A stretch of 64,000 nt of DNA. Source: Actinobacteria bacterium IMCC26077. GTDB taxonomy: Bacteria > Actinomycetota > Actinomycetes > Nanopelagicales > Nanopelagicaceae. The notes under the pieces were generated by a model that worked only from the letters and a program-made list of their open reading frames with translations, searched no databases and was not told the origin of the DNA. The stretch is taken from NCBI GenBank assembly GCA_002284915.1, contig CP015606.1:1302001-1366000 (forward strand). The letters are read 5' to 3'. Below, piece by piece: positions 16,100-57,004 of this stretch (position 1 is the stretch's first letter; every line of letters starts with the position of its first letter). Position numbers and translations under genes: made by a program.

Positions 16100-16101
16100 G
16101 A

Positions 16102-29792: not shown

Positions 29793-30554
29793 ATGGCAGA
29801 GACAACCACCTCTCCGCGCACTATCTCCGGGGTTCTAGTTGTCGCACTCTCGCTCGCATTGGGCGGACTATCCGCAACTTCCGCAAGTGCCAACGAAACC
29901 TCTGGCGGAACTTCTTCCGCCACTCCAACGCCGAGCGCTTCGCCATCACCATCGGCGACGCCACAGACTTATCAACAACAACTTGATGCTTACAAAATCA
30001 AACTTGAAGAGTTCAAAGTAGCGCTCGAAAAATGGAATGCGCTACGAAAAGCTGCTGAGGATGCGTTCAAGATTGAGATGGATAAATTCAAAGTTGCCCG
30101 CGATGCTTGGGATAATGCGAACCGTAGCCTCATCGAAGAGATTAATGATGATTTCAAGAAAGATATCAACAAAGCGCGCGCAGATTTCAAAACAGCGTTC
30201 ACGAATGCAAAAAGCACTGAAGCTAAAGCTGCAGCTCGGAATGCGCTTGGCGCAGCAACTCTTGCCGCAACAACCGCTCGACAAATTGCGTTAGAAGCTT
30301 TGGGTGAGCCGCCAACTCCACCTGCGCGACCTAATATTCCAATGCGTCCAATGGAGCCAATCAAACCGATTGATCCCGCTCTAGCGAAAAATGGCAAGCG
30401 TCAAATACAACCTATTCAGCCTATTCAGCCTGGCCAGCCACAACCAAATCCACGCGGCAAGCAAGAGAAGCCCGAGAAGCCCGAGAAACAAGAGCGCCAG
30501 AAACAGCAGCTAGCGCAGTCAGGTGAAAGTAGCTCTACTGCCGCTTCTGCTTAA
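29793..30554 (+). CDS. Secreted charged helical protein with Pro/Gln-rich tail
   Basis: This 253-residue protein has a signal peptide ending near SASA, a Ser/Thr/Pro linker, and a long charged helix (residues about 65-170) rich in Lys, Glu and Asp with regular aromatic positions. A Pro-rich tail follows with repeats such as IQPIQPGQP and EKPEKPEK. There is no enzyme motif. It is divergent from the two-component genes and has the TTCACA boxes about 55 bp upstream, so it is a likely target of that system. It may be an envelope-spanning or wall-bound structural protein. Confidence 0.78.
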   Translation: MAETTTSPRTISGVLVVALSLALGGLSATSASANETSGGTSSATPTPSASPSPSATPQTYQQQLDAYKIKLEEFKVALEKWNALRKAAEDAFKIEMDKFKVARDAWDNANRSLIEEINDDFKKDINKARADFKTAFTNAKSTEAKAAARNALGAATLAATTARQIALEALGEPPTPPARPNIPMRPMEPIKPIDPALAKNGKRQIQPIQPIQPGQPQPNPRGKQEKPEKPEKQERQKQQLAQSGESSSTAASA

Positions 30555-32999: not shown

Positions 33000-34163
33000 T
33001 TACCAATCAGCAACGGATCCATCACCGTGGAACCACTGCGCCGGAGCATCTTGCTTGTAAGGGTGTTTAGCTGCCTCAACATCATTAATCGTTGCGCCAA
33101 TTCCAATACTCGATGGCGGAAGGATATGACCTGCCACGATGTCAGGTGTTCCCTGAACGACATCCTTTCGCCAAGGGACATCGGCGCGCATCACCTCTTG
33201 AATTAAGAAATTAGGGGTCACTAATCCCAAGTGCACATTGACCATCGTTGCTATGGGACCGAGTGGATTATGCGGGGCCATCACAACACCGAATGCATCG
33301 CAGAGCGCAGCAATCTTCCGTAGGCCGGTTATTCCGCCGGCGTGGCATACATCAGGTTGTGCTACCTCGAAGACGCCCGATTTGAGGAAGGGCAAGAAAT
33401 CTTGTTGGGTGTAGAGACGCTCGCCCGCTGCCAACGGAATCGAAACTTTTTCTTTCACTCGTCGCATCGCTTCATACTGCTCCGGCTGTACTACCTCTTC
33501 GAGGAAAAACGGCTTATATGGTGCGAGAACTTCGGCGAATTGAATCGCCATCGCCGCTGAGGTGCGACCGTGAAAGTCGACCATGATGTCGATGTCATCG
33601 CCACCAGCCTCACGTGCGGCGCGCATCAATGTGTCAGCGTGCTTTAACTTCTTGGCGCCTTCGAGCGGAGCAGCCTGTGGCACTGCAAGGATCTTTACTG
33701 CGGTGAAACCCATCTCTTTACTCTCGAGCATTTTTTCAGCAAACGACTGTGCAGTATCTGAGTCATAAACCGCTTCAGAACTTCCGCCACCCAGATGGTC
33801 GTATAGGCGTACGCGATCGCGAGCCAACCCACCGAGAGCTCGCCAGAGTGGGACTCCCATATTTTTCGCATGAATATCCCAGAGCGCCTGGTCGATACCG
33901 CTCAGTGCCGACATCGAAACCACGCCACCTTTGAAGAATGGATGGCGATAGACAATCTGCCAGTTTCGCTCAATTTCGAGGGGGTTTCTGCCGATGATTA
34001 GCGGTGCAACCGACTTCACTGCGCCGACAACTGCCTCAGTTTGGAATTCGACAGTCGCTTCGCCAAGCCCATAGAGACCTGGCTCGTCGGTATCGACTCG
34101 AACGATGACCCAGTTACGCAAATCAGCGTTAATTACTGTCGTCGATATCTTCGTGATCTTCAT
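33000..34163 (-). CDS. Enolase-superfamily dehydratase, galactonate dehydratase-like
   Basis: This 387-residue protein starts with MKITKI and shows GIDQALWDIHAK at the domain junction, metal ligands D196 (VDFHGR), E222 and E248 (AAGERL), H198 and H298 (APHNPLGP), with K157 in AVKIL. It is of the DgoD branch, as is the 8680 gene, but only distantly alike. It lies 8 bp after an SDR gene on the same transcript, which suggests a dehydrogenase-dehydratase pair that converts a sugar through its aldonate. The substrate is unknown. Confidence 0.84.
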   Translation of the reverse strand: MKITKISTTVINADLRNWVIVRVDTDEPGLYGLGEATVEFQTEAVVGAVKSVAPLIIGRNPLEIERNWQIVYRHPFFKGGVVSMSALSGIDQALWDIHAKNMGVPLWRALGGLARDRVRLYDHLGGGSSEAVYDSDTAQSFAEKMLESKEMGFTAVKILAVPQAAPLEGAKKLKHADTLMRAAREAGGDDIDIMVDFHGRTSAAMAIQFAEVLAPYKPFFLEEVVQPEQYEAMRRVKEKVSIPLAAGERLYTQQDFLPFLKSGVFEVAQPDVCHAGGITGLRKIAALCDAFGVVMAPHNPLGPIATMVNVHLGLVTPNFLIQEVMRADVPWRKDVVQGTPDIVAGHILPPSSIGIGATINDVEAAKHPYKQDAPAQWFHGDGSVADW

Positions 34164-34171
34164 CTGCGCCT

Positions 34172-35002
34172 CTATTCCGCTAGACCGGTCTCTGAATTCA
34201 AACCATAACTTCGAGCCAATTCAGGGTCCAAATCGATGGCTCCCAGCGCCGATGTCCAAGCGCCTTCGACGGCAAGACTTTGCCCGGATACATACGAAGC
34301 CTTATCCGAAAGGAGAAATGCCACAACCTCTGCGATTTCTGCAGCATCGGCGATTCGCTTCAAGGGAGTGAGCGCTTCAAGGGAGTGTTGTCGCGCTGCT
34401 GGATCTGGCGCATCGGCAAAACTCTTGGCAAGTGCCGGTGTCATCACTGCGCCCGGAGCAACCGCGTTACATCGAATTCCATAGGGTCCGTAAGTCACAG
34501 CAACATTGCGAGTGAGCGCATCCACGGCCGCCTTAGTCATTTCATACAGAGCATGATCGCGCCATGCTCGTCTGCCATGAACCGAAGAGATATTGACAAT
34601 TGCACCGCGTATCTTTTGGCTGACAAAGGAATGCAGAGCTTCGGCACATCCCCAAAAAGTTCCGTTTTGATTTGTTGCGATGAGCTCTTCAAACAGTTTT
34701 GGATCATTGGGAAAATCATGAAGCGCAGCACCCCGAGTCCAGCCGGCACAATTAACCCATGCCACCAAAGTTCCATTTACCGCGGCTAATTCGCGCGCTT
34801 TGATGTGAGTTGCCCTGTCGGCGACATCTCCGACAATCGATTGCGCATGAAAGCCTTGAGTTGCAATCTCGCGCTCTACAGCGGCGAGATTCTCACCGTT
34901 AATATCAACATTGATCAACGCATACTCTGCAGCAAGTTTCATCGCAATCGCGCGGCCAATGCCAGAGCCAGCCCCGGTCACCACAGCGACTCTTTTCGAC
35001 AT
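34172..35002 (-). CDS. SDR family oxidoreductase
   Basis: This 276-residue enzyme has TGAGSGIGRAI, the cofactor-choosing Asp in NVDINGEN (NAD), SSVHGR with the active Ser, and YEMTK. The C-terminal part is long by about 20 residues. It precedes the dehydratase at 33000 and may oxidise the sugar that this enzyme later dehydrates, or oxidise its 2-keto-3-deoxy product. It diverges from the M14 gene. Confidence 0.85.
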   Translation of the reverse strand: MSKRVAVVTGAGSGIGRAIAMKLAAEYALINVDINGENLAAVEREIATQGFHAQSIVGDVADRATHIKARELAAVNGTLVAWVNCAGWTRGAALHDFPNDPKLFEELIATNQNGTFWGCAEALHSFVSQKIRGAIVNISSVHGRRAWRDHALYEMTKAAVDALTRNVAVTYGPYGIRCNAVAPGAVMTPALAKSFADAPDPAARQHSLEALTPLKRIADAAEIAEVVAFLLSDKASYVSGQSLAVEGAWTSALGAIDLDPELARSYGLNSETGLAE

Positions 35003-35123: not shown

Positions 35124-36173
35124 GTGTCGACGACCGTGTCAATCTCTTTTGATCTCAACGCATCTGGCAAAAATACTGGTTATCTAGTTGTTGGCGACTC
35201 CACCAATAACAGTGGATGGGCTACCCATCGAGTGCCCATCATCTCGTTCAAAAATGGCGAAGGGCCAACTGTGCTCCTTGTTGGTGGAACTCATGGTGAT
35301 GAATATGAAGGACAGATTGCCGCTGCATCGCTCTCACGATCACTTGATATCAATGATGTCACCGGTCGAATCATCATCATCCCGTGCATCTCAATGGAAG
35401 CGGCGCGAAATGGAAATCGACTATGGAACGATGGCGCTAATTTTAATCGAGTCTTTCCAGGTAACGAGAACGGCGGCATCCACGGCAAGCTCGCACATTT
35501 CTTGAGTTCAGAGCTCTTCCCGCAGTGCGATGGCGTAGTTGATATGCATTCGGGTGGCCGGAGTATGTACTTCATCCCAAGTTCAAATATGACGTGGGTC
35601 AAGGATAAGAATCAACGCGCAAAATTAATCAAGAACATGGTCGCTTGGAATACTGAAGTTCATATGATTGGTGGCGAGCAACCTAATACCGATCCTTATT
35701 CATTACTCAACCGGAATGCCGAAGCGCAAGGTAAGTCGGTTTCTACTGGAGAGTTTGGTGGGATTGGCACTACGACTCCGCAAAGCATGCGCATCATCAA
35801 AGAGGGCTTGGCGAACTTCCTTCGAGCATTTGGCGTTTTAAAAGGTGCAGTGAAAACTCGAGACGAGATGGGACGTGGTCCTGTCTCAATCATCGATTTT
35901 CGAGATGGCAATAAGTTCATCAACGCTCCACGTGCTGGAATCTACGAGAATCTTGTGGCGCTTGGCGCTGAGGTTAAAAAGGGCGACATTGTTGGCCAGA
36001 TTCACGATGTCGATCATCCCGATGTTCCACCAGTTCAAGTGCGCACCGCAACCGATGGCGTAGTGGGAGTGATTCGAGGATTTCCTCCAGTAGTCACCGG
36101 CGACTGCGTTTGCGTGGTCGGAAAGAAATGGGACTCACTGGATGCCATCGAGAATGAGGAGACTCGCGCATGA
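35124..36173 (+). CDS. DoeB-like M14 family N-acyl deacylase, copy 1
   Basis: This 349-residue zinc hydrolase matches the succinylglutamate desuccinylase/aspartoacylase group, closest in pattern to DoeB (N-acetyl-diaminobutyrate deacetylase). Zinc ligands are H57 and E60 (GTHGDEYEG) and H142 (MHSGG); NFNR holds the substrate-binding Arg. The GTG 35124 start aligns with copy 2; the open frame to 34911 overlaps the SDR and is rejected. It shares ATGA with copy 2. No ectoine hydrolase (DoeA) is nearby, so another N-acyl substrate is likely. Confidence 0.85.
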   Translation: MSTTVSISFDLNASGKNTGYLVVGDSTNNSGWATHRVPIISFKNGEGPTVLLVGGTHGDEYEGQIAAASLSRSLDINDVTGRIIIIPCISMEAARNGNRLWNDGANFNRVFPGNENGGIHGKLAHFLSSELFPQCDGVVDMHSGGRSMYFIPSSNMTWVKDKNQRAKLIKNMVAWNTEVHMIGGEQPNTDPYSLLNRNAEAQGKSVSTGEFGGIGTTTPQSMRIIKEGLANFLRAFGVLKGAVKTRDEMGRGPVSIIDFRDGNKFINAPRAGIYENLVALGAEVKKGDIVGQIHDVDHPDVPPVQVRTATDGVVGVIRGFPPVVTGDCVCVVGKKWDSLDAIENEETRA

Positions 36174-37213
36174 GCACCACTGTCTCCTGTTCCATCGACC
36201 TCGATTCACCCGGGAAATCAACTGGTTACCTGAAAATCGGCGACTCAACCAATCAAAGCGGCTGGGCTACGTACATGGTGCCGATCATCAAGTACAAGAA
36301 TGGCGAAGGTCCAACTGTGTTGGTGCTCGCTGGCAACCACGGCGATGAGTATGAAGGGCAATTCGCAGCACGAGATCTCGCAAACAATCTCGACATGAAT
36401 GAAGTCACCGGACGAATCATCATCATCCCGTGTCTTTCGCAACCAGCAGCGAAAGCTGGCACGCGGCTTTGGCCTGATGGCACTAATTTCAATCGCATCT
36501 TCCCTGGAAATGAGAATGGCGCCGTCCACGGAAAACTTGCCTACTACTTGAGCACCGAGCTCTTCCACCAAGTCGACGCAGTATTCGAACTTCATAGCGG
36601 AGGTCGTGGACACCACTTCGTTCCCTGCTCTCACATGGTCTGGTCTTCCGATGTCACTCAACGGAAGCGAATGATCGAAGGAATGAAGAGTTACAACACC
36701 TCTCATCACATGATCTTTCCCGAGCAACCTGGAACCGATCCGACCACACTCCTACCTGGACTCGTTGAGCGGTTAGGTAAAGGTTTGGTCACGACCGAAC
36801 TTGGCGGTTCAGGTATCGCCACCTTCGAAAGCACCACCATTGCCAAAGATGGCCTTCGCAATGGGTTGCGTTTCTTCAAAGCGATAAAGGGCGAGAGCAA
36901 GACTCGAGCCGAACTTGGGCTCAAGCCTCCCATCTTTCTCGACTTACGAAGCTCTAAGTCTTATCACTCGGCAACTCATGTGGGTCTGTACGAGAACATC
37001 AAAGGTGCAGGCGATGCAGTCGAGAAGGGCGAGGTCATTGGTCTGATCCACGACATGGATCACCCAGATACCCCCGCTGTTGAGATACGTGCGCAACAAT
37101 CGGGAGTAATTGGCGTCATGCGCGGATTTCCCCGAGTCAACATTGGTGATGTTGTCGCAGTTTTGGGCCCTGCATACGCTTCAACAGACCTATTTCCAGA
37201 GAATCCCGACTAA
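36170..37213 (+). CDS. DoeB-like M14 family N-acyl deacylase, copy 2
   Basis: This 347-residue paralogue of the previous gene keeps zinc ligands H57, E60 and H142 (ELHSGG) and ends in the same C-terminal beta domain (PAVEIRAQQSGVIGVMRGFP). The DNA of the two copies has diverged, so the duplication is not recent. Two joined copies suggest a hetero-oligomer or two acyl chains. It converges with the ceramidase-like operon. Confidence 0.85.
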   Translation: MSTTVSCSIDLDSPGKSTGYLKIGDSTNQSGWATYMVPIIKYKNGEGPTVLVLAGNHGDEYEGQFAARDLANNLDMNEVTGRIIIIPCLSQPAAKAGTRLWPDGTNFNRIFPGNENGAVHGKLAYYLSTELFHQVDAVFELHSGGRGHHFVPCSHMVWSSDVTQRKRMIEGMKSYNTSHHMIFPEQPGTDPTTLLPGLVERLGKGLVTTELGGSGIATFESTTIAKDGLRNGLRFFKAIKGESKTRAELGLKPPIFLDLRSSKSYHSATHVGLYENIKGAGDAVEKGEVIGLIHDMDHPDTPAVEIRAQQSGVIGVMRGFPRVNIGDVVAVLGPAYASTDLFPENPD

Positions 37214-37230
37214 GAAAAGCTAACCACTAC

Positions 37231-38640
37231 TTAGCGCTTGATAATTTTGGGTAAGCGAGAGATTGCGCTAGATACTTCATCGGTAATCAATTCCAAACCA
37301 CCTTCGGCAAGAAGCGTTTGCCATGCCTGGTATCGAAGTCTCTTGTATGCCTCGGGAGTTGGCAGATACATATATCCCGGTCCGTTAGTGCAATTGAGGA
37401 CAAAGATCACGCGATCTGGGTGGCGCCGACGTAATTCCATTTGGAAATAGGAGTAAGCCTCACCAGGTTGACCAACAATCACAGCATCGCCCCATTGCCA
37501 GATCCAGACCGGATGGGTTGCGCGACCGCCTTCGAGGACATAACCGGCGCGAAGCTTCATCGCTCGGTTGATACGCGTCTCCCGAGCCCCTTCTTCGACA
37601 TCCTTCCATCGCTCACGCAGCTCTTCGATAGTTGGAAGTTTCTGTAGTGGTACTTCGATATCTAATCGGGTCGCAGCGGTGATGTTCGGCGCCGAATGAT
37701 CTACCTCTTCCCAATCACCCAAGAGCGCTCCCGATTCGACTGCTTCGAGAAATCGCATTTTCTTCCCTGATGTAATCATTTTCTCTAACGTGGCAAGCGC
37801 GGCATAACCCAAAATTCGTCCATTTTTGTCGGCTACTTCGGTATCTCCTGAATTTCCATCTCGTGGTGCGAGATCGCCAGATGCACCCTGCAAGAAGAGC
37901 ATCGGTGCGCCGGTCTTTGCTTGAATGATGTCGCGAGCCTCTCCGACAAAATCGGGCGATACCTTGCTGTTCTTCCACGCCAAAGTGGTTGGGTGGCATG
38001 CGTAATTAACGACCGTGCCAATTATCTTCCCGCTGCTATCGCACAGTCGACCCACGGTCAACGTGTCATCAGCAGGTTCTCCTGGATTAAAACCGACGAT
38101 ATCGATTTCACCACAAGGAAGTTCGCGATTGATTGCTAGATCGCACTTTCCATAAGACCAAGTAATTGTGGATGCGACTGCCTTGGCGGAAGCTTCTTTG
38201 CAAGCCGCGATAATCTCAGCTGTGGCAAACTTGTGATAGTCCGCAACGAACTCGCCACCCTCTAAATGCGCAATATCCGATGCCGTGGATGGGCCAGCAT
38301 GGGTATGGGTCAGATGAAGTTGAAGTTGATTCTCCTCAATCCCTAACTCCTGCAAAACCACGCCCCGAACTGCTAGGTCATCTGCCTTGCCTTGCCACCA
38401 ACCCCAATCAACGGTGACTAGATATTGAAACTTTCCGCCATCAACTTTGACTGCCATCGCGGTTGTTGTGATGTTGTTATGAATACCCGTTGCAACATGA
38501 ATCTTCGCCGCACCCCAGCTTGCTGCGCGAATTCCAATAGGTGGATTGATGATTCGCTGTGCCATACCTGCCGTAAGCGATGCGGCAAGAGGTAGGTGAA
38601 CAGACTTTGCCTTCGGAGGTTGAAGATCAGGTCTAGCCAT
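37231..38640 (-). CDS. Ceramidase-like amidohydrolase (neutral ceramidase N-terminal family), copy A
   Basis: This 469-residue protein has the zinc pattern of neutral ceramidases: H112/H114 (THTHAGP), H216 (YACHPTT), the Glu of QPGEAYSY and the Tyr region MYLPTPEAY. It has no signal peptide, so it acts in the cytoplasm, and it lacks the extra C-terminal domain of true ceramidases. The nucleophile motif GDxSP reads GDLAP (A258), so the usual Ser is missing. A ceramide substrate is unlikely; it may cut a small amide or act on a sugar-acid derivative. Start overlaps copy B by one base. Confidence 0.8.
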   Translation of the reverse strand: MARPDLQPPKAKSVHLPLAASLTAGMAQRIINPPIGIRAASWGAAKIHVATGIHNNITTTAMAVKVDGGKFQYLVTVDWGWWQGKADDLAVRGVVLQELGIEENQLQLHLTHTHAGPSTASDIAHLEGGEFVADYHKFATAEIIAACKEASAKAVASTITWSYGKCDLAINRELPCGEIDIVGFNPGEPADDTLTVGRLCDSSGKIIGTVVNYACHPTTLAWKNSKVSPDFVGEARDIIQAKTGAPMLFLQGASGDLAPRDGNSGDTEVADKNGRILGYAALATLEKMITSGKKMRFLEAVESGALLGDWEEVDHSAPNITAATRLDIEVPLQKLPTIEELRERWKDVEEGARETRINRAMKLRAGYVLEGGRATHPVWIWQWGDAVIVGQPGEAYSYFQMELRRRHPDRVIFVLNCTNGPGYMYLPTPEAYKRLRYQAWQTLLAEGGLELITDEVSSAISRLPKIIKR

Positions 38641-40049
38641 TACTTACCCCCTGTTATTCGCTTGATGACTGCATCGGCTGAATCGATGACTGAATCGAGC
38701 GAGCCAGCAGCTAACAGCGTTTGCCATGCTTGATAAGCAGGTGCGTTGTAGGCGCTCTTGATGGGTAGATAGAAAAGCCCAGGGGCATTAGTAAGGTTCA
38801 TCACGAAGATGATCTTCCCTGGATTCTTTCTCCGAAGTTCGGTCTGAATGAAGGAATAGGCCTCGCCGGGTTGCGCTACGAATATCGCCTCGCCCCATTG
38901 CCACACCCATACTGGATGATCCACTTCGGCATTCGACTCATACCCAATTCTTAATCGCTCCGCACGCGAAATACGCTCTTCGAGCGCGCCTGCATCAATG
39001 CCCGACCACTCTTCGCGAAGTTGTGCGATTGATTTCAACTCTTTAACGCGCACAGTGGCATTAATTCGCTCTTCGTGGCAGAGATCTGAACCGCGCACCG
39101 GCATTTCGTGCCATTCGCCAAGCAAGGCACCAGATTCCACGATTCCATTCCACCGAAGCCCATGGCCTGGTGATTGCATGGATGCCAACGTGGAGAGGAT
39201 TGCGTGCCCCAACATCGTGCCATTCTTGTCGGCAAGGGAGGTATCACCGCTGTATTGGTTGCGCGGTGAAAGCTCACCAGATGCTCCTTGAAGAAACATC
39301 ATAGGTGCGCCAGTTACTTTCTCTACCAAGATTCGAGCCATACCTATGTAATCGGGTGAAACCGCCATGTTCTCCCAGGCCAGTGTCGTGGGATGGCACG
39401 CGTAATTCGCGATGGTGCCGATGACTTTTCCGGCGCGATTGGAAATCCGTCCCACTACCAACGTGTCGTCAGCGACTATCTCTGGATTGAATGCAACCAC
39501 CTCTTGTGAACCACAGGGAAGGTCGCGATTGACAGCAAGATCGCAGTGGCCATAGCCCCACGTCACATCAACATCTTCGATCTTAGATGCCGCTTCTTTG
39601 CATGCTTCGATGGTCTTAGCGATGATATTCGCGCGGAAAGCAGGAATTAATTCAGATCCCTCTTTTTGCGAGCGATGCAAGCACGGTAGCGGCACGGCGT
39701 GAGTGTGGCTTGATGAGAAGAGAATCTGGTCGCGCGCAACACCAACACCGACCGCAATCTGGTCGAGGAGATCGTGAGCGCATTCAACGCAACCCAATAC
39801 ACATAGATCTATCCCCACGATAAAACTTTTCGCGCCACTCTTATCCTCGCGTGCGACTGCTGTAAGGAAAAGTCCGATGTGAATCGACTCGGATTTAAAC
39901 TTCTTTGCCGCACCCCAAATGCCAGACATGATTCCTACTGGAGGGGTGAATTCACGTTGGGCAACGCCACAACGAAGCGCACTCATCGGTTCGCGCCAGG
40001 TGGTTTGCTTCGGGGTTAGATGAGCATTCGGAGAGTCAATGGAGGCCAT
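38640..40049 (-). CDS. Ceramidase-like amidohydrolase, copy B
   Basis: This 469-residue paralogue has H115/H117 (SSHTHAVP), H219 (YACHPTT), the Glu of QPGEAYSF, and a GELSP motif with S261 at the nucleophile position, so unlike copy A it keeps the serine. It has no signal peptide. It lies between an MFS gene and copy A on one transcript. The pair may form a mixed complex with one active and one altered site. Confidence 0.8.
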   Translation of the reverse strand: MASIDSPNAHLTPKQTTWREPMSALRCGVAQREFTPPVGIMSGIWGAAKKFKSESIHIGLFLTAVAREDKSGAKSFIVGIDLCVLGCVECAHDLLDQIAVGVGVARDQILFSSSHTHAVPLPCLHRSQKEGSELIPAFRANIIAKTIEACKEAASKIEDVDVTWGYGHCDLAVNRDLPCGSQEVVAFNPEIVADDTLVVGRISNRAGKVIGTIANYACHPTTLAWENMAVSPDYIGMARILVEKVTGAPMMFLQGASGELSPRNQYSGDTSLADKNGTMLGHAILSTLASMQSPGHGLRWNGIVESGALLGEWHEMPVRGSDLCHEERINATVRVKELKSIAQLREEWSGIDAGALEERISRAERLRIGYESNAEVDHPVWVWQWGEAIFVAQPGEAYSFIQTELRRKNPGKIIFVMNLTNAPGLFYLPIKSAYNAPAYQAWQTLLAAGSLDSVIDSADAVIKRITGGK

Positions 40050-40096
40050 TTGGCTATCTAAGCACTGAGGAAATTGACTGTCTATGAAGCGCTAAA

Positions 40097-41317
40097 TTAT
40101 TCGGGAGTGCGAAATCGCGCCCGCAAAAAGAGGCTCATCATGACCGCCATGCTCGCACCGAACGCAATCGCTCCCCGAGGCGAAATCAAGTCGGCGAGAA
40201 ATCCAAGTGCAATTCCCCCGAGTGCGATCATCGTTTGCCACGCGAAGATGTATATCCCCCATGCTCGCCCATAGAAATCTGGGGTGGCGTATCTTCGGAT
40301 TCCACCGTTGCCTGAGATATTCACGCCCATCGAGAAGTATCCGCAGCCGAAAAGGGCAACTAGGTAAAGCCAATAGTTCGGTGCAATAGACGCTGCTAGC
40401 CAGATTCCTGCCATATAAAAGGAACGTTTAGTTAGCAAATCGATTGACGGAAGCGTCTTATGTCGTGCAAATGAGAGCGCTCCCACAATTGCTCCTGCGG
40501 CGATAGCTGAACCCATCAAACCGAATCCGGAAGCGCTTCCTTGAAAAACTTGCTTTGCCATCAAGGCCGATGTGAACTGCATATCTTGCCCCCACATAGC
40601 AAGAAACGAGACCGCAAAGATGGAGTAGAAAAGTCGTTTCTGTGCAAAGACGTATGAGAAGCCATCTCGCAGGCGAACTGGTAGGCCATCTCTTCGATTA
40701 TTTATGTATTGGTAATCTGCAGGATTGATCGAGAAAAGTGAGAGCGCACACAAAAGATAGCTGATGGAATTGAAGAGAAAGGCCTCGCCAATCCCAAGGT
40801 TGTCGATTACAAAACCCGCGAGCGCGGGGCCGAACAATCTTCCGAAATTTATATTGGCAGAGTTCAAACTCAGCGCGCTGGGTAATTTCTCTTCACCAAC
40901 CAAGGTCACGTAGTAGCTCTGACGAATTGGTCCATCAATCGCATTGGTGATTCCCAGCAATAAAGCTGCAAGCACCACATGAGCGCTCACTACTTGATCT
41001 GCTAACACAAGCGTTGCCAGTATTGCCGCAATGGCAAAGGCTGAAAGATTGCAGAGAATAAGAGCGCGCTTTGGGTTGACCTTGTCGGCCAACTTTCCAG
41101 CATGAAGACTAAAGAAGAAACCTGGAAGAAATTGCGCTGCTACCACCACTCCAAGCAGTTGCGCACTATCGGTGAGGTTAAGAATCAACCAATCCTGAGC
41201 AACACGATGCGCCCAATTTCCAGAGTTGGAAATAGCGGTACCAAAGAAATAATTTCGATAATTACGCTCGGACAAGGCAACGAATCGATTTCCGAATTTA
41301 CTACGACGCTCTGCCAT
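40097..41317 (-). CDS. MFS transporter, DHA3-like
   Basis: This 406-residue carrier has twelve predicted spans and the motif A-like loop GKLADKVNPKRAL between spans 2 and 3. The pattern SERNYRNYFFGTAISNSGNWAHRVAQDWL is typical of the Bcr/EntS/TetV-like group, mostly exporters. It is the first gene of the transcript with the two ceramidase-like genes, 47 bp upstream. It could export or import their substrate. Confidence 0.85.
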   Translation of the reverse strand: MAERRSKFGNRFVALSERNYRNYFFGTAISNSGNWAHRVAQDWLILNLTDSAQLLGVVVAAQFLPGFFFSLHAGKLADKVNPKRALILCNLSAFAIAAILATLVLADQVVSAHVVLAALLLGITNAIDGPIRQSYYVTLVGEEKLPSALSLNSANINFGRLFGPALAGFVIDNLGIGEAFLFNSISYLLCALSLFSINPADYQYINNRRDGLPVRLRDGFSYVFAQKRLFYSIFAVSFLAMWGQDMQFTSALMAKQVFQGSASGFGLMGSAIAAGAIVGALSFARHKTLPSIDLLTKRSFYMAGIWLAASIAPNYWLYLVALFGCGYFSMGVNISGNGGIRRYATPDFYGRAWGIYIFAWQTMIALGGIALGFLADLISPRGAIAFGASMAVMMSLFLRARFRTPE

Positions 41318-41532: not shown

Positions 41533-41553
41533 TCAAGACCACATTGGTCTTGA
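41533..41553. promoter_or_regulatory. 21-bp perfect palindrome upstream of the Dpp-type operon
   Basis: Arms TCAAGACCA and TGGTCTTGA are separated by CAT. The palindrome ends 34 bases before ATG 41588, a repressor position at or just after the promoter. It could also fold as an RNA hairpin in the leader. The arm CAAGACCA recurs at 20527-20534. The rest of the 41318-41587 gap shows no gene. Confidence 0.55.
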
Positions 41554-41587: not shown

Positions 41588-43210
41588 ATGACATCAAAGA
41601 AAATGCGAAATGTTGTCTTCGCATTTGCATCCGCTTCGCTCATGGGTTCACTGCTCATCGGCGTTCCGGCTGCAAAGGCAGCAACAGGCGCAAACTGTAA
41701 GTTAACGACTCCGACTGCAAAAGCTGAATGCGATGCAATCACAGTTGGAGCTGTCGGTAAGGTCACTTCACTTGATCCTTCCAACAGCCTTCGTACATCG
41801 AATCAAAATTACATCTCAAAATTCCTCATTTCAGGCATGTTGTGGCGAATCGCCTCTGACGGCAAGCCAAAGAAGGATCTGCTCAGCGATGCTAAGCAAT
41901 CTTCCGATGGTTTAACTTGGACGCTTACCCTCAAGAACATCAAGTACTCCGACGGCAAGACTCAAGTAGTTGCCGATGATGCGGTCTTCATGTTCGAACT
42001 ACTCAAGAAAGCACCAGTTCCACAACTTGCTGTTATTGAGGACATCTCTGCTCCTGATGCCAAGACGATTGTCATCAAGACCAAGAGTCGCTTCAACGAT
42101 CTCCCTTACGCGATGGCCGGCATCTACTTCTGGATGCATCCTCGCGCTCTCGCATCTGATCCCAAGTACTGGGAAGCACCGCTGAGTGCAGGCCCTTACC
42201 GCATCAAGGAGTGGAAGCTTGGCGATGACAAGATGGTTGTCGAGGCGAACCCAAATTACTGGGCTAAGCCTGCTGTAAAGCAAGTAACCTACTTGGCAAT
42301 CCCAGATCCAGTGACTCGTGTTATCGCTCTCCGCCAAGGAACGATCGATTACGCATTCGATCTACCTGCTGCAATCGCTCGCGGACAGCTCGCTGATAAG
42401 AACGTCTTCCGTTGGCAGCCAACCCAACTCCAAGGAACATTCACCTTGGACTTCAACCTCCGCGATATGGAAGGTTGCAAAGATAAGGTTGTCTCTGCAG
42501 CTAGCTGCTTACCGGTGAAAGCACAGCCATGGCATAACCCCAAGGTCCGCCAAGCTCTTTCAATGGCAGTGAACCGCAAGGCCATGGGCGACATCGCATT
42601 CTTCGGCGATGTGAAGCCAAGTTGCGCACTTACCTGGCCAGGACACCCTGCCTACAAGTGCCAAAACCCAGATCGCACCAAGCAGAATCTAGCTGGCGCG
42701 AAGAAGCTCCTTGCTGAAGCTGGTTATCCAGATGGTTTCCCCATCACTATCACCGTCTTCAACCGACCAGGTTGGGCTGACGCAATCAGCATCATTGCTG
42801 CTGATTGGCGCAAGCTCGGCTCCAAGATGGTTGTCACGACTGAGCCTCAGACTGATGCCGTCGGTGGCGCTCGCCAAACCTCTGGTGAGTACCAAGTTCA
42901 ATTCTCCGGTGCAACCGGTGCCCTCCCAGCGCAACTCCTCAATATCTATTGGGGTAAGGGTGGCGCATGGCAGAACTGGTCTGCTTCATCATCCAATAGC
43001 GCAGACCTTGCCGCGCTCGATGCAGCAGTAACCGAGAAGGATCAAATCGCCCTCGTGGCTGCAATCGAGAAGAAGATCTGGGAAGAATCAGCACACATCC
43101 CTGTTGGGCAACGTGCTGTCTTCGGCGCAAGCCGTCTTCCAGCAAACGTCTTCTCCAACGTCAAGGGCAACGATCACTACTTCGTGAAGCAATCTCCTCC
43201 ACTTTCATAA
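41588..43210 (+). CDS. ABC transporter substrate-binding protein, family 5 (peptide/oligosaccharide)
   Basis: This 540-residue protein has a signal peptide with an A-x-A cut near AKAA, no lipobox, and the family-5 body: LTWTLTLKNIKYSDG, the anchoring PYRIKEWK, and VRQALSMAVNRKAM. It captures peptides, glycans or other oligomers. It heads a complete importer with two permeases and two ATPases, plus a ceramidase-like hydrolase that may process the cargo. GGAAAGG precedes the ATG. Two hairpins follow before the permease gene. Confidence 0.92.
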   Translation: MTSKKMRNVVFAFASASLMGSLLIGVPAAKAATGANCKLTTPTAKAECDAITVGAVGKVTSLDPSNSLRTSNQNYISKFLISGMLWRIASDGKPKKDLLSDAKQSSDGLTWTLTLKNIKYSDGKTQVVADDAVFMFELLKKAPVPQLAVIEDISAPDAKTIVIKTKSRFNDLPYAMAGIYFWMHPRALASDPKYWEAPLSAGPYRIKEWKLGDDKMVVEANPNYWAKPAVKQVTYLAIPDPVTRVIALRQGTIDYAFDLPAAIARGQLADKNVFRWQPTQLQGTFTLDFNLRDMEGCKDKVVSAASCLPVKAQPWHNPKVRQALSMAVNRKAMGDIAFFGDVKPSCALTWPGHPAYKCQNPDRTKQNLAGAKKLLAEAGYPDGFPITITVFNRPGWADAISIIAADWRKLGSKMVVTTEPQTDAVGGARQTSGEYQVQFSGATGALPAQLLNIYWGKGGAWQNWSASSSNSADLAALDAAVTEKDQIALVAAIEKKIWEESAHIPVGQRAVFGASRLPANVFSNVKGNDHYFVKQSPPLS

Positions 43211-43349: not shown

Positions 43350-44360
43350 GTGACTGATTCACAGCAAACCGCTGCCGCACAAGATGCGCAGATGGTGGTA
43401 GAAAAAGATCGAAATCGCGCAGCGCTGCGCAAGACTTTCTACGGCCGAATTCTCCGTTCGGTCATAGTGGGTTTTTGGGTGATGGTGATTGCCTTCTCGC
43501 TCATGCGGTTGAGCCCTGGCGATCCGGTCCGCTTGGCTCTTGGCGCGGATGTCACGGAGGAAGCGGTCGACGCCTTTCGAACTCAACTCGGACTGGACAA
43601 ACCTTTCTACATTCAATTTTGGGATTACTTCACCGGCATTTTCCGCGGGGACCTCGGTTACTCCTATTTCTCTGGTCGTGATGTCACCGAAATCATCGGG
43701 ACCCACCTTCCCGTCACCTTGATGATTATTGGACTATCGATTCTCTTTGCTGCGCTGATCTCATTACCGTTGGCTCTTTTTGTTGCAACGAGCAAGAGCA
43801 ACACAGTCAATTACATGTTCCGAGCGCTGACTTCAGTTTCCCTCGCCATCCCGGGCTTTTTTCTTGCGCTCCTTGGGTTGCTCGTATTCGGTGTCTATTT
43901 CAATATCGCACCAGCTGCAGGGTATGAAGGCGCATTCCCGGGGAATTTGAAATATCTATGGCTCCCCGCGCTAGCCAATTGTGGGTCACTGGTCCCGGTC
44001 CTCTCGCGCGTACTTCACTCCTCACTTGTGGATACCCTCGATGAAGAATTTGTTGAGACTGGAGTAATCCGTGGGGTCCGAAAGGGCCGGTTCTACTGGT
44101 CATACCTGTTGCGCCCCTCGTTGGCGCCAACAGTCGTCCTGCTCAGTTACATGGTTGGCGTGATGATTGGTGGCACGGTCATCATGGAAACTATCTTCTC
44201 GTTACCAGGTATCGGTCGAGAGCTCATAACTGCAGTCGATGGCCGCGACTACCCAGTGGTACAAAGTATTGCCATGATCTTCGGATTGATTGTCGTATTT
44301 TTCAGTTTCATTGGCGACCTCACTGGATACCTTCTGGATCGGAGGGTGACGCTCTCATGA
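43350..44360 (+). CDS. ABC transporter permease, DppB type
   Basis: This 336-residue inner-membrane protein has six predicted spans and the DppB pattern: VIAFSLMRLSPGDPVRLALG in the first periplasm-side loop, and ETGVIRGVRKGRFYWSYLLR in the EAA-like loop. It overlaps the DppC-type gene by ATGA. Confidence 0.92.
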   Translation: MTDSQQTAAAQDAQMVVEKDRNRAALRKTFYGRILRSVIVGFWVMVIAFSLMRLSPGDPVRLALGADVTEEAVDAFRTQLGLDKPFYIQFWDYFTGIFRGDLGYSYFSGRDVTEIIGTHLPVTLMIIGLSILFAALISLPLALFVATSKSNTVNYMFRALTSVSLAIPGFFLALLGLLVFGVYFNIAPAAGYEGAFPGNLKYLWLPALANCGSLVPVLSRVLHSSLVDTLDEEFVETGVIRGVRKGRFYWSYLLRPSLAPTVVLLSYMVGVMIGGTVIMETIFSLPGIGRELITAVDGRDYPVVQSIAMIFGLIVVFFSFIGDLTGYLLDRRVTLS

Positions 44361-45217
44361 GCAGCAACGTCGAAACCCAAGAAAAACCGAAAAAGAGATT
44401 TATCAAAGAGGGAACCTTTGGTATCTACACCGGCTTCTTCATGCTCGGTTCCCTCATCGTTGCCGGCGCGATCATTCCAAGGATTAGCAAGTACGGCGCA
44501 GATGACCTGGCCGCTATCCCTCTTGCGCCACCAAGTCGAGCGAACTTCTTCGGAACCGACGTCCTAGGGCGCGATGTATTTGTCCGAGTCTTTGATGCGG
44601 TCTTCATTGACCTCGGTACAGCAATCATCGGAGTTTCAATTCCGTTGATTGTTGGAACTATTATCGGGACGTTGCTTGGGATCTCTCAGAGCAAGCGGAT
44701 CAATGCAGTGGTCGGCTCGTTAATCGATGGAATCAACGCCTTCCCGTTTCTCATTTTCGTCATTGCGCTTATTGCGTTCATTGGTCCGGGAGTGGGAAGC
44801 ATTGTCCTGGCAATTTCATTGGTCAACTGGGCACGTTACGCCCGTATCGCACGTACGCGTGCAGTCGTCGTCAATAAACAGGGATATATTGAGGCAGCAC
44901 GAACTTTGGGGTATTCGAAGAAGCGAATTCTCTTTAAGCACATCATTCCCAACGTCTCCTCAGAGACGCGCGCATATGCGTTAAGCGATTTCATTATCGT
45001 GATCATCGCAGTAGCTGCCCTCTCGTTCCTTGGACTTGGCATCAAACCTCCGCAAGCGGAGTGGGGTGGCATGATCCGCGACGGAAAAGATCTGCTCACA
45101 GTGGGATTCTGGTGGCCAACGGTATTTCCAGGTTTGGCGCTCTGCTGGGCGGGAATTGCCGTTGCCTTCATCTCAGAAGGCCTTACTCGCCGGATGCGAG
45201 AGGTAGGAACTCGATGA
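44357..45217 (+). CDS. ABC transporter permease, DppC type
   Basis: This 286-residue permease carries FFGTDVLGRDVFVRV after the first span and the EAA loop YIEAARTLGYSKKRILFKHIIPN, both diagnostic of DppC. Its stop overlaps the ATPase start at 45214. Confidence 0.92.
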   Translation: MSSNVETQEKPKKRFIKEGTFGIYTGFFMLGSLIVAGAIIPRISKYGADDLAAIPLAPPSRANFFGTDVLGRDVFVRVFDAVFIDLGTAIIGVSIPLIVGTIIGTLLGISQSKRINAVVGSLIDGINAFPFLIFVIALIAFIGPGVGSIVLAISLVNWARYARIARTRAVVVNKQGYIEAARTLGYSKKRILFKHIIPNVSSETRAYALSDFIIVIIAVAALSFLGLGIKPPQAEWGGMIRDGKDLLTVGFWWPTVFPGLALCWAGIAVAFISEGLTRRMREVGTR

Positions 45218-46203
45218 GCGCTTCCAATACCCCACTTATTCAAGTTCGCGATGTTGTAATCGGCATACCGCATAAGCGGCGACCAACATTAACAATCGTC
45301 AACAAAGCTAACTTTGATATCAACTACGGTGAAATGGTTGGAATCGTTGGTGAGTCTGGCTCAGGTAAAACGATGATTTGTCGAACGATGATTGGCACTC
45401 TGGAACGTCGGGGCGGAAAGATCCTCTCTGGCGATGTTCTTTTCGAGGGAGAGAGCCTTGCCCGGGCCTCCGAGTCTGACTGGAAGAAGCTCCGCGGAAA
45501 ATCCATTGGTTACGTCCCGCAGAGCGCGCTCGCTGGTCCTAATCCAGTACTCACCATCGAAGCGCAACTTGCTGAGGCTCTTCGAAATACTGGTGACACA
45601 AAAAACATCAAGTCGCGTTCAAAAGAACTTCTCGAACTGGTGAAGATTCGACGCGTCGATACCGTCCTCAAGCAATACCCCTACCAACTATCTGGTGGAA
45701 TGCGCCAACGCGTAATGATTGCATGCGCGCTCGCTACTAGCCCTAAATTACTTATCGCCGATGAGCCGACTACTGGACTAGATGTGACGGTCCAATCCCA
45801 AATCATGGATCTTCTCAAAGAGATTCGTTCCACTATGGGAACTGCCATCGTTCTGATCTCCCACGACCTTGCACTCATTGATGAGGTATGCGATCGAGTG
45901 GTAGTAATGCATGCCGGTGCGACAGTTGAAGTTGGCTCAGTCAAAGAGCTTGTAAAGCCTCGCCATCCATACACGATTGCGCTCAATTCATCGCGCATTG
46001 ATATCGCACAACCTGGAAGCGAACTCGTCACTATCAAAGGGAATGCCCCTTCAGTCGGCGAATGGAATCCTGGCTGCCGATTTGCCGATCGTTGTTCGAT
46101 TGTGCAAGCCGATTGTCGAACTGGCGAACATCCTGAATTGATTGGAGCGAGCGGAACCCATCAAACTGCTTGCATTCACACCGAACTTTTGGAGCGAATC
46201 TAA
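45214..46203 (+). CDS. ABC transporter ATP-binding protein, DppD type
   Basis: This 329-residue ATPase has Walker A GESGSGKT, LSGGMRQRV, Walker B LIADEPTTGLD and the C-terminal cysteine-rich GCRFADRCSIVQADC of Dpp/Opp ATPases, a possible Fe-S site. I use ATG 45214, which overlaps the upstream TGA; the frame reaching back to 45061 runs inside the permease gene. It overlaps the DppF-type gene by TAATG. Confidence 0.94.
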   Translation: MSASNTPLIQVRDVVIGIPHKRRPTLTIVNKANFDINYGEMVGIVGESGSGKTMICRTMIGTLERRGGKILSGDVLFEGESLARASESDWKKLRGKSIGYVPQSALAGPNPVLTIEAQLAEALRNTGDTKNIKSRSKELLELVKIRRVDTVLKQYPYQLSGGMRQRVMIACALATSPKLLIADEPTTGLDVTVQSQIMDLLKEIRSTMGTAIVLISHDLALIDEVCDRVVVMHAGATVEVGSVKELVKPRHPYTIALNSSRIDIAQPGSELVTIKGNAPSVGEWNPGCRFADRCSIVQADCRTGEHPELIGASGTHQTACIHTELLERI

Positions 46204-47003
46204 TGGCTGATTTCCTTCTCGAAGCTAAAAATGTCAGCGTGACTTTTGGATCTGGTTCAACCAAAGTCGAAGCGGTGAAGAACGTTTCGCTCACATTGCG
46301 AGCAGGCGAACCGATAGGCATCGTTGGCGAATCCGGAAGTGGAAAATCAACTTTGGCCCGAGTTCTCGCGGGGTTGCAAGTTCCAACGGAAGGCGAAATC
46401 CTCTTCAACGGAGAGTCGGTCTACAAAGGTTCGAAGGCCTACACCGGTGAGGCGCGACGTCAGGTTCAAATGGTCTTTCAGGATCCATACGGCAGCCTCA
46501 ATCCGCAGTTGACCGGTTTAAATGCCGTTGCTGAAGCAGTTCGAATACACGATAAAACGAGTAAGGAGCTCTCTGAAGAGCGAGCCCTGCAATTACTCCG
46601 TCGAATGGGAATTGCAGAACTTGATGCAATCAAGAAACCCCGACAGCTCTCAGGAGGGCAAAGGCAACGCGTCAGCGTCGCAAGAGCTCTCTCTGCAAGC
46701 CCCACGGTCTTACTCGCCGATGAACCGACCTCTGCCATCGACCAAAGTGCTCAAGCGCAGCTGCTCAATCTCTTTCGAGGTCTTCTCGATGAAGGTCTAG
46801 CAATTGTGCTCGTATCGCATGATCTGGGAGTCATTCGCTATCTCACCAAGCGCGTTTATGTCATGAAGGACGGCGTCTTCGTTGAGTCAGGAGTTACAGA
46901 GGAAATATTTAATGACCCACGAGAGGAGTACACGAAACTTCTCCTTGCCTCTATCCCTGGAGATCTTGGTGTAGCTGCTCGACAGAAACTCAACAAGAGC
47001 TGA
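46203..47003 (+). CDS. ABC transporter ATP-binding protein, DppF type, short
   Basis: This 266-residue ATPase has Walker A GESGSGKST, LSGGQRQRV and LLADEPTSAID. It is about 60 residues shorter than usual DppF and lacks the C-terminal cysteine-rich segment that its partner keeps. It completes the importer. The next gene follows after 16 bp. Confidence 0.93.
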   Translation: MADFLLEAKNVSVTFGSGSTKVEAVKNVSLTLRAGEPIGIVGESGSGKSTLARVLAGLQVPTEGEILFNGESVYKGSKAYTGEARRQVQMVFQDPYGSLNPQLTGLNAVAEAVRIHDKTSKELSEERALQLLRRMGIAELDAIKKPRQLSGGQRQRVSVARALSASPTVLLADEPTSAIDQSAQAQLLNLFRGLLDEGLAIVLVSHDLGVIRYLTKRVYVMKDGVFVESGVTEEIFNDPREEYTKLLLASIPGDLGVAARQKLNKS

Positions 47004-47019: not shown

Positions 47020-48465
47020 ATGCCTGGTCGAGGTCTACGCGCTGGTGCTGTCAACCTCACCATCAATCCAGAGCTCGGCATGGCCAAGGGTGGGCTCCGT
47101 CTTTTTGGCAGCCCCATCGAAAAAGTTGATGATGATCTCTATCTTGGAGTGCTAGTCCTCGAATCACAAGGTACGACCCTCGCACTTATCGCATGCGATC
47201 TTGGAAACTCCAGAACAGAAGAGGCGCTCGCAATTCGAAGTGGTGTCGCGCAGGCCCTTGATGTTCCAGTCGTAAACGTGATGTTCAACCTGAGCCACAA
47301 CCACAGCGCCGCTGACTTGCCAACCATGCTCCATGGGAATGCAGATGAAGAGGCAATCGCTCGTAGCGAAGGATATTTTGATTTTGTTATCGAGCAGGCG
47401 GTCCAAGCCGCGATTACCGCGCAAGCGCAGCTTCGACCCGCTCGCATGGCGCACGCCTGGGGTAAAAGCGATTTGAACATCTACCGTCGTGAGTGGAATG
47501 GTGATCAAGATATCTTGGGCGAAGTTCCTGACCATCCTGTTGACGACTCAGTGGGAGTGATTCGATTCGATGATCTCGAGGGTAATCCCATTGCGATCCT
47601 CTTCCGCTACTCCTGCCATCCAGTAGTAAATGGCGCCCAATCCCCCACGCTCTCAGCAGACTTCCCTGGTCCAGCCCGAAAGATCATCGAGAAGAACGTT
47701 GGCGGCACCGTCCTCTTCCTCCAAGGTTGTGGTGGAAACATCAACCCCCAAGTTGGTATTGGTTACGAGAAAGATTGCTCTGAAGAGGTCTACCGGGTAG
47801 GTACTGCACTTGGTGCCGAAGTCGTTCGCATCGCACTCGGTCTCCGAACAAATAAGTATCAGAGCGATCGAGTCCTGCTACATAACGTTCCGAATATCCT
47901 CTTCAAGCCCTGGGAAGAGCGCAATGACCATCCTACAATTACACTGAATGCAAGTCACGAGACAGCACACTTTAATTTCGTACCACTACCCTCGCCGACT
48001 GAAGCTCAAGAATTGCAACGATATTGGGAGAGTGAAATCGTTGCTCGGGAAGCTCGAGGCGCACTCACTTGGGAGATTCGGGTCGCAAAGAAGATGAAGC
48101 TTTGGGCCGATTCGGTAGTCGCGAGCTCTCGAGAGAAGAATCCCACGCGAGAATTTGAAGCACACGCCTTTCGCATAGGTGATATCGCAATTGTGGGTTT
48201 GAACGTCGAGGCCTTCTTCGAAAGTGGAGAGCAAATAAAAGCCCACTCTCCATGGCCGGACACTTTCGTACTTGGCTACACAAATGGCACCATCATGTAT
48301 CTGCCGCGGGCCGAGGATTATCCAAAGGGCGGTTGGAAGTGGCCAAATAGCCATGCGCTTCCTGATTTCTTGCCACAGTCGTATTGCCAACCAGCTCAGT
48401 GGCATCCAGATTCGGAACAGAAAGCGGTCAGAGCGGCATTGAACGCGCTCGAAAAATTAAAGTAG
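47020..48465 (+). CDS. Ceramidase-like amidohydrolase, copy C
   Basis: This 481-residue protein is a third member of the neutral ceramidase N-terminal family, with H93/H95 (LSHNHSA), H200 (YSCHPVV), the Glu of GLNVEAFFE and IMYLPRAEDY. The nucleophile site reads GNINP (N242), so the serine is absent. It has no signal peptide. It lies at the end of the Dpp-type importer operon and is therefore the likely first enzyme on the imported compound. It is far from copies A and B in sequence. Confidence 0.78.
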   Translation: MPGRGLRAGAVNLTINPELGMAKGGLRLFGSPIEKVDDDLYLGVLVLESQGTTLALIACDLGNSRTEEALAIRSGVAQALDVPVVNVMFNLSHNHSAADLPTMLHGNADEEAIARSEGYFDFVIEQAVQAAITAQAQLRPARMAHAWGKSDLNIYRREWNGDQDILGEVPDHPVDDSVGVIRFDDLEGNPIAILFRYSCHPVVNGAQSPTLSADFPGPARKIIEKNVGGTVLFLQGCGGNINPQVGIGYEKDCSEEVYRVGTALGAEVVRIALGLRTNKYQSDRVLLHNVPNILFKPWEERNDHPTITLNASHETAHFNFVPLPSPTEAQELQRYWESEIVAREARGALTWEIRVAKKMKLWADSVVASSREKNPTREFEAHAFRIGDIAIVGLNVEAFFESGEQIKAHSPWPDTFVLGYTNGTIMYLPRAEDYPKGGWKWPNSHALPDFLPQSYCQPAQWHPDSEQKAVRAALNALEKLK

Positions 48466-56979: not shown

Positions 56980-57004
56980 CGGACTCAATCCCTTTCACTT
57001 TTTT

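Follow-up and report, generated by a model that had tools for sequence, protein, structure and literature searches.

What could two deacylases of the M14 family have to do with two ceramidase-like hydrolases whose genes they face? The question is raised by positions 35124-41317 of a 64,000-nucleotide stretch of DNA (hereafter the window), which corresponds to positions 1302001-1366000 of the complete 1.55 Mb genome of Actinobacteria bacterium IMCC26077 (Nanopelagicaceae). The original prediction, made from the letters of the window, held that these genes could serve N-acylated sugar acids or amino acids, together with a third ceramidase-like enzyme, a D-aminoacylase-like enzyme and an M81 family protein encoded in the same window. 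Computational analysis gave the folds, the zinc-ligand positions, the packing of the genes and the recurrence of the set, and the functional linkage of the gene set is well supported. As to its task, we see about an even chance that it works in the cytoplasm as a catabolic module whose targets are polyhydroxylated amino compounds in amide linkage (N-acylated), amino sugars or amino-sugar acids in type.

Organization of the cluster

The cluster consists of five genes:

35124-36173, plus strand: M14a, zinc deacylase of the AstE/AspA type (GTG start; PF24827, 109.4 bits; TIGR02994, 238.6 bits against a cut-off of 402.7)
36170-37213, plus strand: M14b, paralogue of M14a, 54-55% identical (PF24827, 103.9 bits; TIGR02994, 247.9 bits against 402.7)
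37231-38640, minus strand: CerB, ceramidase-fold zinc hydrolase with a single catalytic domain (AlphaFold 2 (AF2) model, fold match, zinc-ligand positions)
38640-40049, minus strand: CerA, paralogue of CerB, 44-46% identical (PF04734, 30.8 bits against 32.1; tree)
40097-41317, minus strand: transporter of the MFS_3 family (major facilitator superfamily, MFS), first gene of the CerA-CerB run (PF05977, 151 bits; kept with Cer and M14 genes in relatives)

All five were confirmed as open reading frames at these coordinates, in agreement with the predicted layout of two M14 genes facing an MFS gene and two ceramidase-like genes. M14a and M14b overlap by 4 bp (ATGA), CerA and CerB share one base (TAATG), and 17 bp separate the stop codons of the convergent M14b (plus strand) and CerB (minus strand). 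The MFS_3 gene precedes CerA in the minus-strand run. Inspection of the translations by eye revealed no signal peptide in M14a, M14b, CerA or CerB.

Recurrence of the two enzyme groups

We surveyed 296 genomes of the order, taking as strong a match above 400 bits for the ceramidase-fold (Cer) proteins and above 200 bits for M14, which excluded the weaker matches (two genomes for Cer, 11 for M14). Strong Cer matches were found in 22 genomes, strong M14 matches in 22, and both in 20 (Fisher p 9e-27, a value that ignores kinship). A gene of the CerA/B/C type immediately adjoins M14b in half of the M14 genomes (11/22). Two M14 copies are present in 16 of these 22 and one copy in five, while the remaining genome is truncated there at the end of a contig. 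In four genomes of other genera (G231, G235, G221 and G096) the M14 pair stands beside counterparts of three further window genes listed below, which code for a Rid-like protein, the short-chain dehydrogenase (SDR) SDR55 and the enolase-superfamily protein MLE50, with Cer3/Cer4-type genes nearby; three of the four have Opp genes further along and two have SDR48.

A phylum-wide sample of 296 genomes yielded one strong M14 match beyond the window genome, in a member (G490) of a second actinobacterial family, f67. Among 101 genomes of f67, 22 had any M14 match and nine a strong one; gene families were assigned by Pfam and NCBIfam in G490 alone, and those of the other genomes are tblastn matches to G490. 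In all nine strong genomes the M14 cluster contains a ceramidase-fold gene (G689 has its cluster on two contigs), a class-III aminotransferase gene and an enolase-superfamily gene, and in eight of them it contains two M14 copies. MFS_3 was found in seven, a GntG-type aldolase in six, a D-aminoacylase-like gene in five and Opp genes in four, several loci being cut by contig ends. The ceramidase count of nine comes from tblastn with the G490 protein; the Pfam ceramidase model finds a match in eight of the nine genomes, above its cut-off in five. The GntG-type enzyme, which is pyridoxal-phosphate (PLP) dependent, scores 318.6 against a cut-off of 230, and in G490 an S15-type peptidase gene lies at the end of the cluster. 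The original prediction had made its case depend on the two pairs being found together elsewhere, and they are, in 20 of the 296 genomes of the order and in 9/9 strong-M14 genomes of f67. Its choice of a D-aminoacylase-like partner likewise gains from the five f67 clusters that have one, and taken together the f67 clusters come close to repeating the gene list of that prediction.

The M14 copies pair by family: the two f67 genes are mutual kin, and likewise those of the window's family. Trees uniting the 'a' or the 'b' copies across families were rejected (p 7.8e-5 and 1.1e-4), which means that M14 was either duplicated twice in parallel, separately in the two families, or homogenised within each lineage. 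Separate duplication, next to ceramidase-fold genes in both families, suggests a need for two M14 enzymes, which might form a heteromer or handle one substrate each. The ceramidase-fold gene of G490 falls outside the CerA/B/C clade. In another f67 genome (G678; locus L164, near 5.2 kb) a piece 44% identical to CerB lies just past MFS_3 in the M14 cluster, which may thus have acquired a gene of the CerB type as well.

Ceramidase-fold enzymes

The window encodes one more enzyme of this kind:

47020-48465, plus strand: Cer3, third ceramidase-fold hydrolase, directly 3' of OppF (PF04734, 18.4 bits; model, fold match)

None of the three proteins reaches the gathering score of Ceramidase_alk (PF04734; 32.1 bits), with CerA at 30.8, CerB at 28.9 and Cer3 at 18.4; NF041649 scores 23.9 bits on CerA against a cut-off of 1200 and gives no match to CerB or Cer3. 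The AF2 model of CerB (mean predicted local distance difference test score, pLDDT, 93.8) matches neutral ceramidases with Z scores of 32.8-34.2 and root-mean-square deviations (rmsd) of 3.4-4.1 A over 386-389 residues, the next match having a Z of 5.6; for 2zws the values are Z 34.2, 389 residues and 4.1 A. The weaker model of Cer3 (pLDDT 70.7) matches 2zws with Z 28.8 over 380 residues at 3.8 A, so that the third ceramidase-like enzyme foreseen at 47020 has the ceramidase fold by model. Judged from these models, the fold of the neutral-ceramidase catalytic domain is clear in both CerB and Cer3.

Residues H112, H216, E394 and Y425 of CerB align to H97, H204, E411 and Y448 of 2zws, which we take to be the zinc ligands. 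H216, E394 and Y425 are identical in 45/45 relatives, and H112 in 41/45, the other four having Gln; in Cer3 the equivalent positions are invariant in all ten aligned rows. The four Gln rows are CerC paralogues (L025:2215-3603, L027:89-1516, L028:7855-9216 and L029:9901-11289). Since CerC has Gln in place of the first presumed zinc-ligand His, one member of each tandem Cer array may have altered or lost metal chemistry. The idea that CerB lacks the ceramidase catalytic serine, located by a G-D/E-L-S/A-P motif, was dropped: the alignment to 2zws puts the motif near residue 250 and not at 274, presumably the number of that serine.

CerA, CerB and CerC are family-internal duplicates that group in a single clade (support 100/97 in a first tree and 100/98 in a second, which omitted 12 rows of the first). 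Relatives retain CerC between CerB and M14b, and the window genome is without it. Thus the predicted ceramidase-like pair holds as regards its two genes, but they are a remnant of the three-gene array (A, B, C) seen in relatives. A further type, CerD, is present in relatives G003, G004, G007 and G022 and lacking in the window genome, which has a fourth ceramidase-fold gene elsewhere, near 1413194. The annotation 'neutral/alkaline non-lysosomal ceramidase' is found in many bacteria and some archaea, and the neighbouring genes, where inspected, gave no sign of ceramide use.

M14 enzymes and DoeB

Both M14 proteins belong to PF24827 (AstE_AspA_cat; 109.4 and 103.9 bits against a cut-off of 25). 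The zinc motif HxxE...H, whose residues we assume to have their usual roles, is present, columns H57, E60 and H142 of our profile A2 being invariant in all nine rows. M14 enzymes of the AspA/AstE type deacylate N-acyl amino acids. The original prediction called the pair DoeB-like, and the likeness stands, since DoeB (TIGR02994) is the best NCBIfam match of both; they are nevertheless not DoeB itself. Their scores of 238.6 (M14a) and 247.9 bits (M14b) fall below the equivalog cut-off of 402.7, and DoeA is absent from the window genome (best score 21.2 bits against 613). The two true DoeB genes that we examined both adjoin doeA and eutB, and the M14 clade of the window and f67 families excludes true DoeB (support 100/99). 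A role of the pair as ectoine deacetylases of the DoeB type was rejected on the scores, the absence of DoeA and the separate clade.

Genomic context in other lineages

To look beyond the window's lineage we drew on the best 80 of at least 559 Cer relatives, which gave 78 loci; removal of those of the window's lineage (L046-L058, L063 and L064) left 63 wide loci from Actinomycetota, Bacteroidota, Chloroflexota and Verrucomicrobiota, each with up to 10 kb on either side and shorter at contig ends. A gene of the sugar-acid-dehydratase type is present in 56/63, an SDR matched by the window's SDR34 in 40/63 (at E 1e-12, any related SDR being counted), an SGL lactonase-type gene in 27/63 and a class-III aminotransferase gene in 21/63. 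Sixteen loci hand-picked from the 63 were compared with background, and MR_MLE was near Cer in 13 of them against 0.64 expected, the observed number being of tblastn matches and the expectation Pfam-based. The typical Bacteroidota operon reads aminotransferase, MR_MLE, SDR, Cer, sodium symporter; in L069, genes matching MLE33-SDR34 are divergent from an aminotransferase-Opp-Cer-FAA run. Some wide loci, with genes for IlvD, DHDPS-family and SGL proteins, look like ordinary sugar-acid operons. More distant Cer genes occur on plasmids (five neighbourhoods examined of 35 records), and two of these five, in Devosia and Nitratireductor, resemble amino-sugar operons with amidohydrolase, SIS and NagB-type genes.

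M14 relatives on plasmids were followed in 14 neighbourhoods of 482 records, one record being examined in a second stretch as well. In Cereibacter and Martelella the plasmid-borne M14 gene occurs with two SDR genes, two MR_MLE genes, Opp genes and an M81 gene that follows M14 in the operon and codes for a protein 47-50% identical to the M81 protein of the window. The M81 enzyme, suggested as a partner by the original prediction, thereby receives independent support. Plasmid records carrying this M81 at E <=1e-60 number 12, all of them from Cereibacter or Martelella. Elsewhere among the plasmids, M14 neighbours a threonine/serine dehydratase gene (one case), an amino acid deaminase gene and a Rid gene (one case), and Rid together with a racemase-annotated PLP enzyme (two cases). 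Distant relatives of BhcC lie near M14 in two alphaproteobacteria (76 and 121.8 bits against 690); one is the racemase-annotated PLP enzyme of a Rid locus and the other is about 4 kb from M14.

Proposed function and alternatives

The partners that recur across lineages comprise an importer together with sugar-acid dehydratases and SDRs, and in some cases PLP enzymes acting on hydroxy amino acids. From these, and from the chemistry that we take to be that of M14 enzymes and ceramidases, we infer amide-linked polyhydroxylated amino compounds as the common substrate, together with the amide chemistry and the order of the steps. An Opp-type ATP-binding cassette (ABC) importer would bring the conjugate in, and CerA, CerB, Cer3 and M14a/M14b would cut its amide bonds. 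M14 would act where the amine bears a carboxylate (N-acyl alpha-amino acid), and Cer where the amide sits on an amino-polyol; a ceramidase cuts the amide on a 2-amino-1,3-diol. The SDRs and the enolase-superfamily or IlvD dehydratases would then convert the released hydroxy or amino acid to acids of the 2-keto-3-deoxy type, which an FAA hydrolase may split, while MFS_3 may export a by-product. The gene neighbours (sugar-acid dehydratases, SDRs, Opp and, elsewhere, PLP enzymes of the type that handles beta-hydroxy amino acids) agree with the predicted substrates, N-acylated sugar acids or amino acids. The original prediction knew of no described pathway with this set, and we too found none in open-licence PubMed Central full text.

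A number of observations weigh against the proposed module. M14 was found in 0/63 wide Cer loci (within up to 10 kb on each side), which speaks against a strict M14-Cer pairing, and Cer is absent from the M14 operons of Cereibacter and Martelella; it follows that neither enzyme needs the other. Within the order, two genomes of the 296 have Cer without M14 and two have M14 without Cer. The sugar-acid setting is not universal either, since seven of the wide loci (L068, L083, of which only 4.1 kb was available, L092, L096, L104, L108 and L119), among them all three from Chloroflexota, are without a dehydratase-type gene; in one of the latter, L092, the neighbours are unrelated (nucleoside hydrolase, tRNA synthetase, glycosyltransferase, PfkB kinase). 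Three of the five distant plasmid Cer neighbourhoods are without amino-sugar genes, and four plasmid M14 relatives have ectoine-type neighbours (transporter genes, two cases) or unrelated ones with no clear partner (two cases). Near the window cluster no gene corresponding to the class-III aminotransferase turned up; the best match in the genome, 37% identical and located elsewhere, is likely HemL. The ceramidase-fold proteins could also cleave esters or lactones instead of amides. Finally, at what we take to be the exact position of the RidA arginine, the Rid-like protein of the window (56593-56988) and its family have Cys or Ser, in seven of seven members aligned. That arginine is conserved and required in imine-hydrolysing RidA, according to PMC4433059. 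A role of the Rid-like protein as imine hydrolase after the dehydration was dropped because the arginine is missing.

Alternatively, two pathways may share one locus and lie together since both serve scavenging: Cer would hydrolyse esters or lactones in a non-phosphorylative sugar-acid route, and N-acyl amino acids would be deacylated independently by the M14 pair. The 63 wide loci with Cer and no M14, some of them like plain IlvD, DHDPS-family and SGL sugar-acid operons, agree with this, as does M14 without Cer in Cereibacter and Martelella. Yet Cer and M14 were joined repeatedly in two families, with M14 duplicated separately, and 27/63 Cer loci already have an SGL lactonase-type gene, so that Cer need not be the lactonase there; we regard this alternative as unlikely while taking it seriously. 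Degradation of peptides or cyanopeptides by a bacterium living beside cyanobacteria strikes us as improbable. Opp would import the peptides, M81 and M14 would be peptidases and the D-aminoacylase-like enzyme would handle D-residues; Opp, M81 and D-aminoacylase-like genes do lie in one region, the f67 cluster of G490 ends in the S15-type peptidase gene, and PMC5574706 gives a predicted uptake of di- and oligopeptides by acI bacteria. The steady partners, however, are sugar-acid dehydratases and SDRs and not peptidases, and the M81 protein is far from MlrC, scoring 153.7 bits with the microcystinase model NF041767 against 999. MlrC-type microcystin degradation was rejected on that score.

The remaining alternatives have little left in their favor. 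A chance gathering of these genes in a sugar-use island might be supposed, as the window is crowded with other sugar genes and four genomes of the order hold one of the two groups alone; recurrence of the same partners in f67 largely refutes it and, with the association in the order (its p value ignoring kinship) and the MR_MLE excess beside Cer, makes it very improbable. True lipid ceramidases, suggested by the fold match to neutral ceramidase (Z 34), are harder still to credit for proteins of 469 residues (630-672 in the solved ceramidase chains) that have no signal peptide by eye, fall so far short of NF041649 and are encoded among sugar-acid genes. Breakdown of ectoine or hydroxyectoine by DoeB-type deacetylases, for which the best NCBIfam match of both M14 proteins would speak, is largely refuted as a pathway by the scores, the missing DoeA and the position and gene neighbours of true DoeB described above, and retains next to no probability.

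A more far-reaching reading is an undescribed route, parts of which several phyla would share, in which ceramidase-fold zinc enzymes are soluble amide hydrolases for amino-sugar-like compounds, joined in at least two actinobacterial families by separately duplicated twin AspA-type deacylases, a D-aminoacylase-like enzyme, MFS_3 and Opp, with N-acyl 2-amino-3-hydroxy acids or sugar-amino-acid amides, a pool of dissolved organic nitrogen, as substrate. This reading is tentative, and we would sooner expect it to fail than to hold. Our literature searches found no dedicated pathway for such acids or amides and, in open-licence PubMed Central, nothing relevant on bacterial ceramidase-like enzymes in sugar routes. 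The conserved sugar-acid context does provide a testable non-lipid role for ceramidase-fold proteins. The Nanopelagicaceae of fresh water (acI) live as scavengers with small genomes, and a pathway of their own for amide-linked amino-sugar material would, if true, bear on their diet of dissolved organic nitrogen.

Other genes of the window

Further genes and one candidate regulatory site complete the region:

13632-15131, minus strand: M81 family metallohydrolase (PF07364, 255.1 bits; 47-50% identical to M81 beside M14 in Cereibacter and Martelella)
33000-34163, minus strand: MLE33, enolase-superfamily dehydratase, galactonate dehydratase by model (NF010624, 336.7 bits against a cut-off of 311)
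34172-35002, minus strand: SDR34, short-chain dehydrogenase, divergent from M14a (PF13561, 157.7 bits)
41533-41553, no strand: perfect 9-3-9 palindrome upstream of OppA, candidate operator
41588-43210, plus strand: OppA, family-5 solute-binding protein (PF00496, 220.6 bits)
43350-47003, plus strand: OppB, OppC, OppD and OppF (open reading frames 43350-44360, 44357-45217, 45061-46203 and 46170-47003; matches to proteins of Cereibacter annotated as permeases and oligopeptide ATPases)
48470-49231, minus strand: SDR48, dehydrogenase (SDR matches in the PDB; synteny)
49367-50119, plus strand: SDR49, dehydrogenase, 38-40% identical to one SDR of the Cereibacter/Martelella M14 operon
50146-51303, minus strand: MLE50, diverged enolase-superfamily protein (PF13378, 59.8 bits; 3bjs, E 1e-14; near the M14 pair in other genera)
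55814-56587, minus strand: SDR55, dehydrogenase (near the M14 pair in other genera)
56593-56988, minus strand: Rid-like protein lacking the RidA arginine (matched by no NCBIfam model at 1e-15; near the M14 pair in other genera)
57005-58588, minus strand: D-aminoacylase-like amidohydrolase (PF07969, Amidohydro_3, 103.5 bits; PRK09061, 165.4 bits against a cut-off of 340)
60782-62521, minus strand: IlvD/EDD dehydratase (PF00920; PRK13016, 833.2 bits against 882; homologues in 8/63 wide Cer loci)
62664-63512, plus strand: FAA hydrolase (PF01557; NF053535, 271.1 bits against 500; homologues in 21/63 wide Cer loci)

Among these, MLE33 scores above the cut-off of the D-galactonate dehydratase model, the PDB matches of SDR48 gave no hint of its substrate, and a search for MLE50 among plasmids gave no match. 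The f67 counterpart of the D-aminoacylase-like protein is 32% identical to it. The open reading frames given for OppD and OppF (45061-46203 and 46170-47003) probably start later than listed. The best solved match of OppA is 6hlx (AgaA; E 7.6e-23), a family similarity too weak to infer a ligand; AgaA presumably binds agropinic acid, which gives no ligand inference for OppA. The palindrome, TCAAGACCA-CAT-TGGTCTTGA, lies 34 bp 5' of OppA, is unique in the window at up to three mismatches (0.01 expected) and is partly kept in two relatives.

The Rid-like gene is kept beside SDR55 and MLE50 in several genera, and its product may represent a Rid subtype of different function; the arginine is present in a second Rid protein (59403-59789). 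Two tandem UxuA-like genes (15128-17055) adjoin M81, and a similar UxuA pair lies about 7-8 kb from a single M14 in other genomes of the family (L125, L133). The 395-residue protein of 54637-55824 has no Pfam or NCBIfam match, and a 25% identical homologue adjoins M14 in Rhizobium leguminosarum (L143). A Pro/Lys/Ala/Gln-rich protein without a Pfam match (29793-30554), encoded beside a two-component system, looks secreted by eye.

Comparison with known systems

The ceramidase-fold enzymes are like neutral ceramidase (PF04734; 2zws of P. aeruginosa and human 4wgk) in their fold (Z 32.8-34.2) and in the residues aligned to H97, H204, E411 and Y448 of 2zws. They differ in that CerB is only 16-19% identical, below the Pfam cut-off, of a single domain and cytoplasmic by eye, and in that Cer genes lie mostly among sugar-acid genes, with tandem copies in the window's family. 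With DoeB, the N-alpha-acetyl-diaminobutyrate deacetylase (TIGR02994; 6twl, 6twm), the M14 proteins share the AstE/AspA family and the zinc motif, and profile A2 scores 235 bits on 6twl/6twm, second to 276 on 3cdx; unlike DoeB they fall below the curated cut-off, form a separate clade, come from a genome without DoeA and have no ectoine genes seen adjoining. The Cereibacter/Martelella operon, of which our literature searches found no published description, has Opp, SDR, enolase-superfamily, M14 and M81 genes in common with the window, whereas it has a single M14 and no ceramidase-fold gene. Non-phosphorylative sugar-acid routes of the L-fucose/L-rhamnose type end in an FAA hydrolase or an aldolase, and the SDR, dehydratase and FAA hydrolase genes near Cer recall them; the Cer systems go beyond these with an Opp importer and genes for amide hydrolases, to which other lineages add a class-III aminotransferase.

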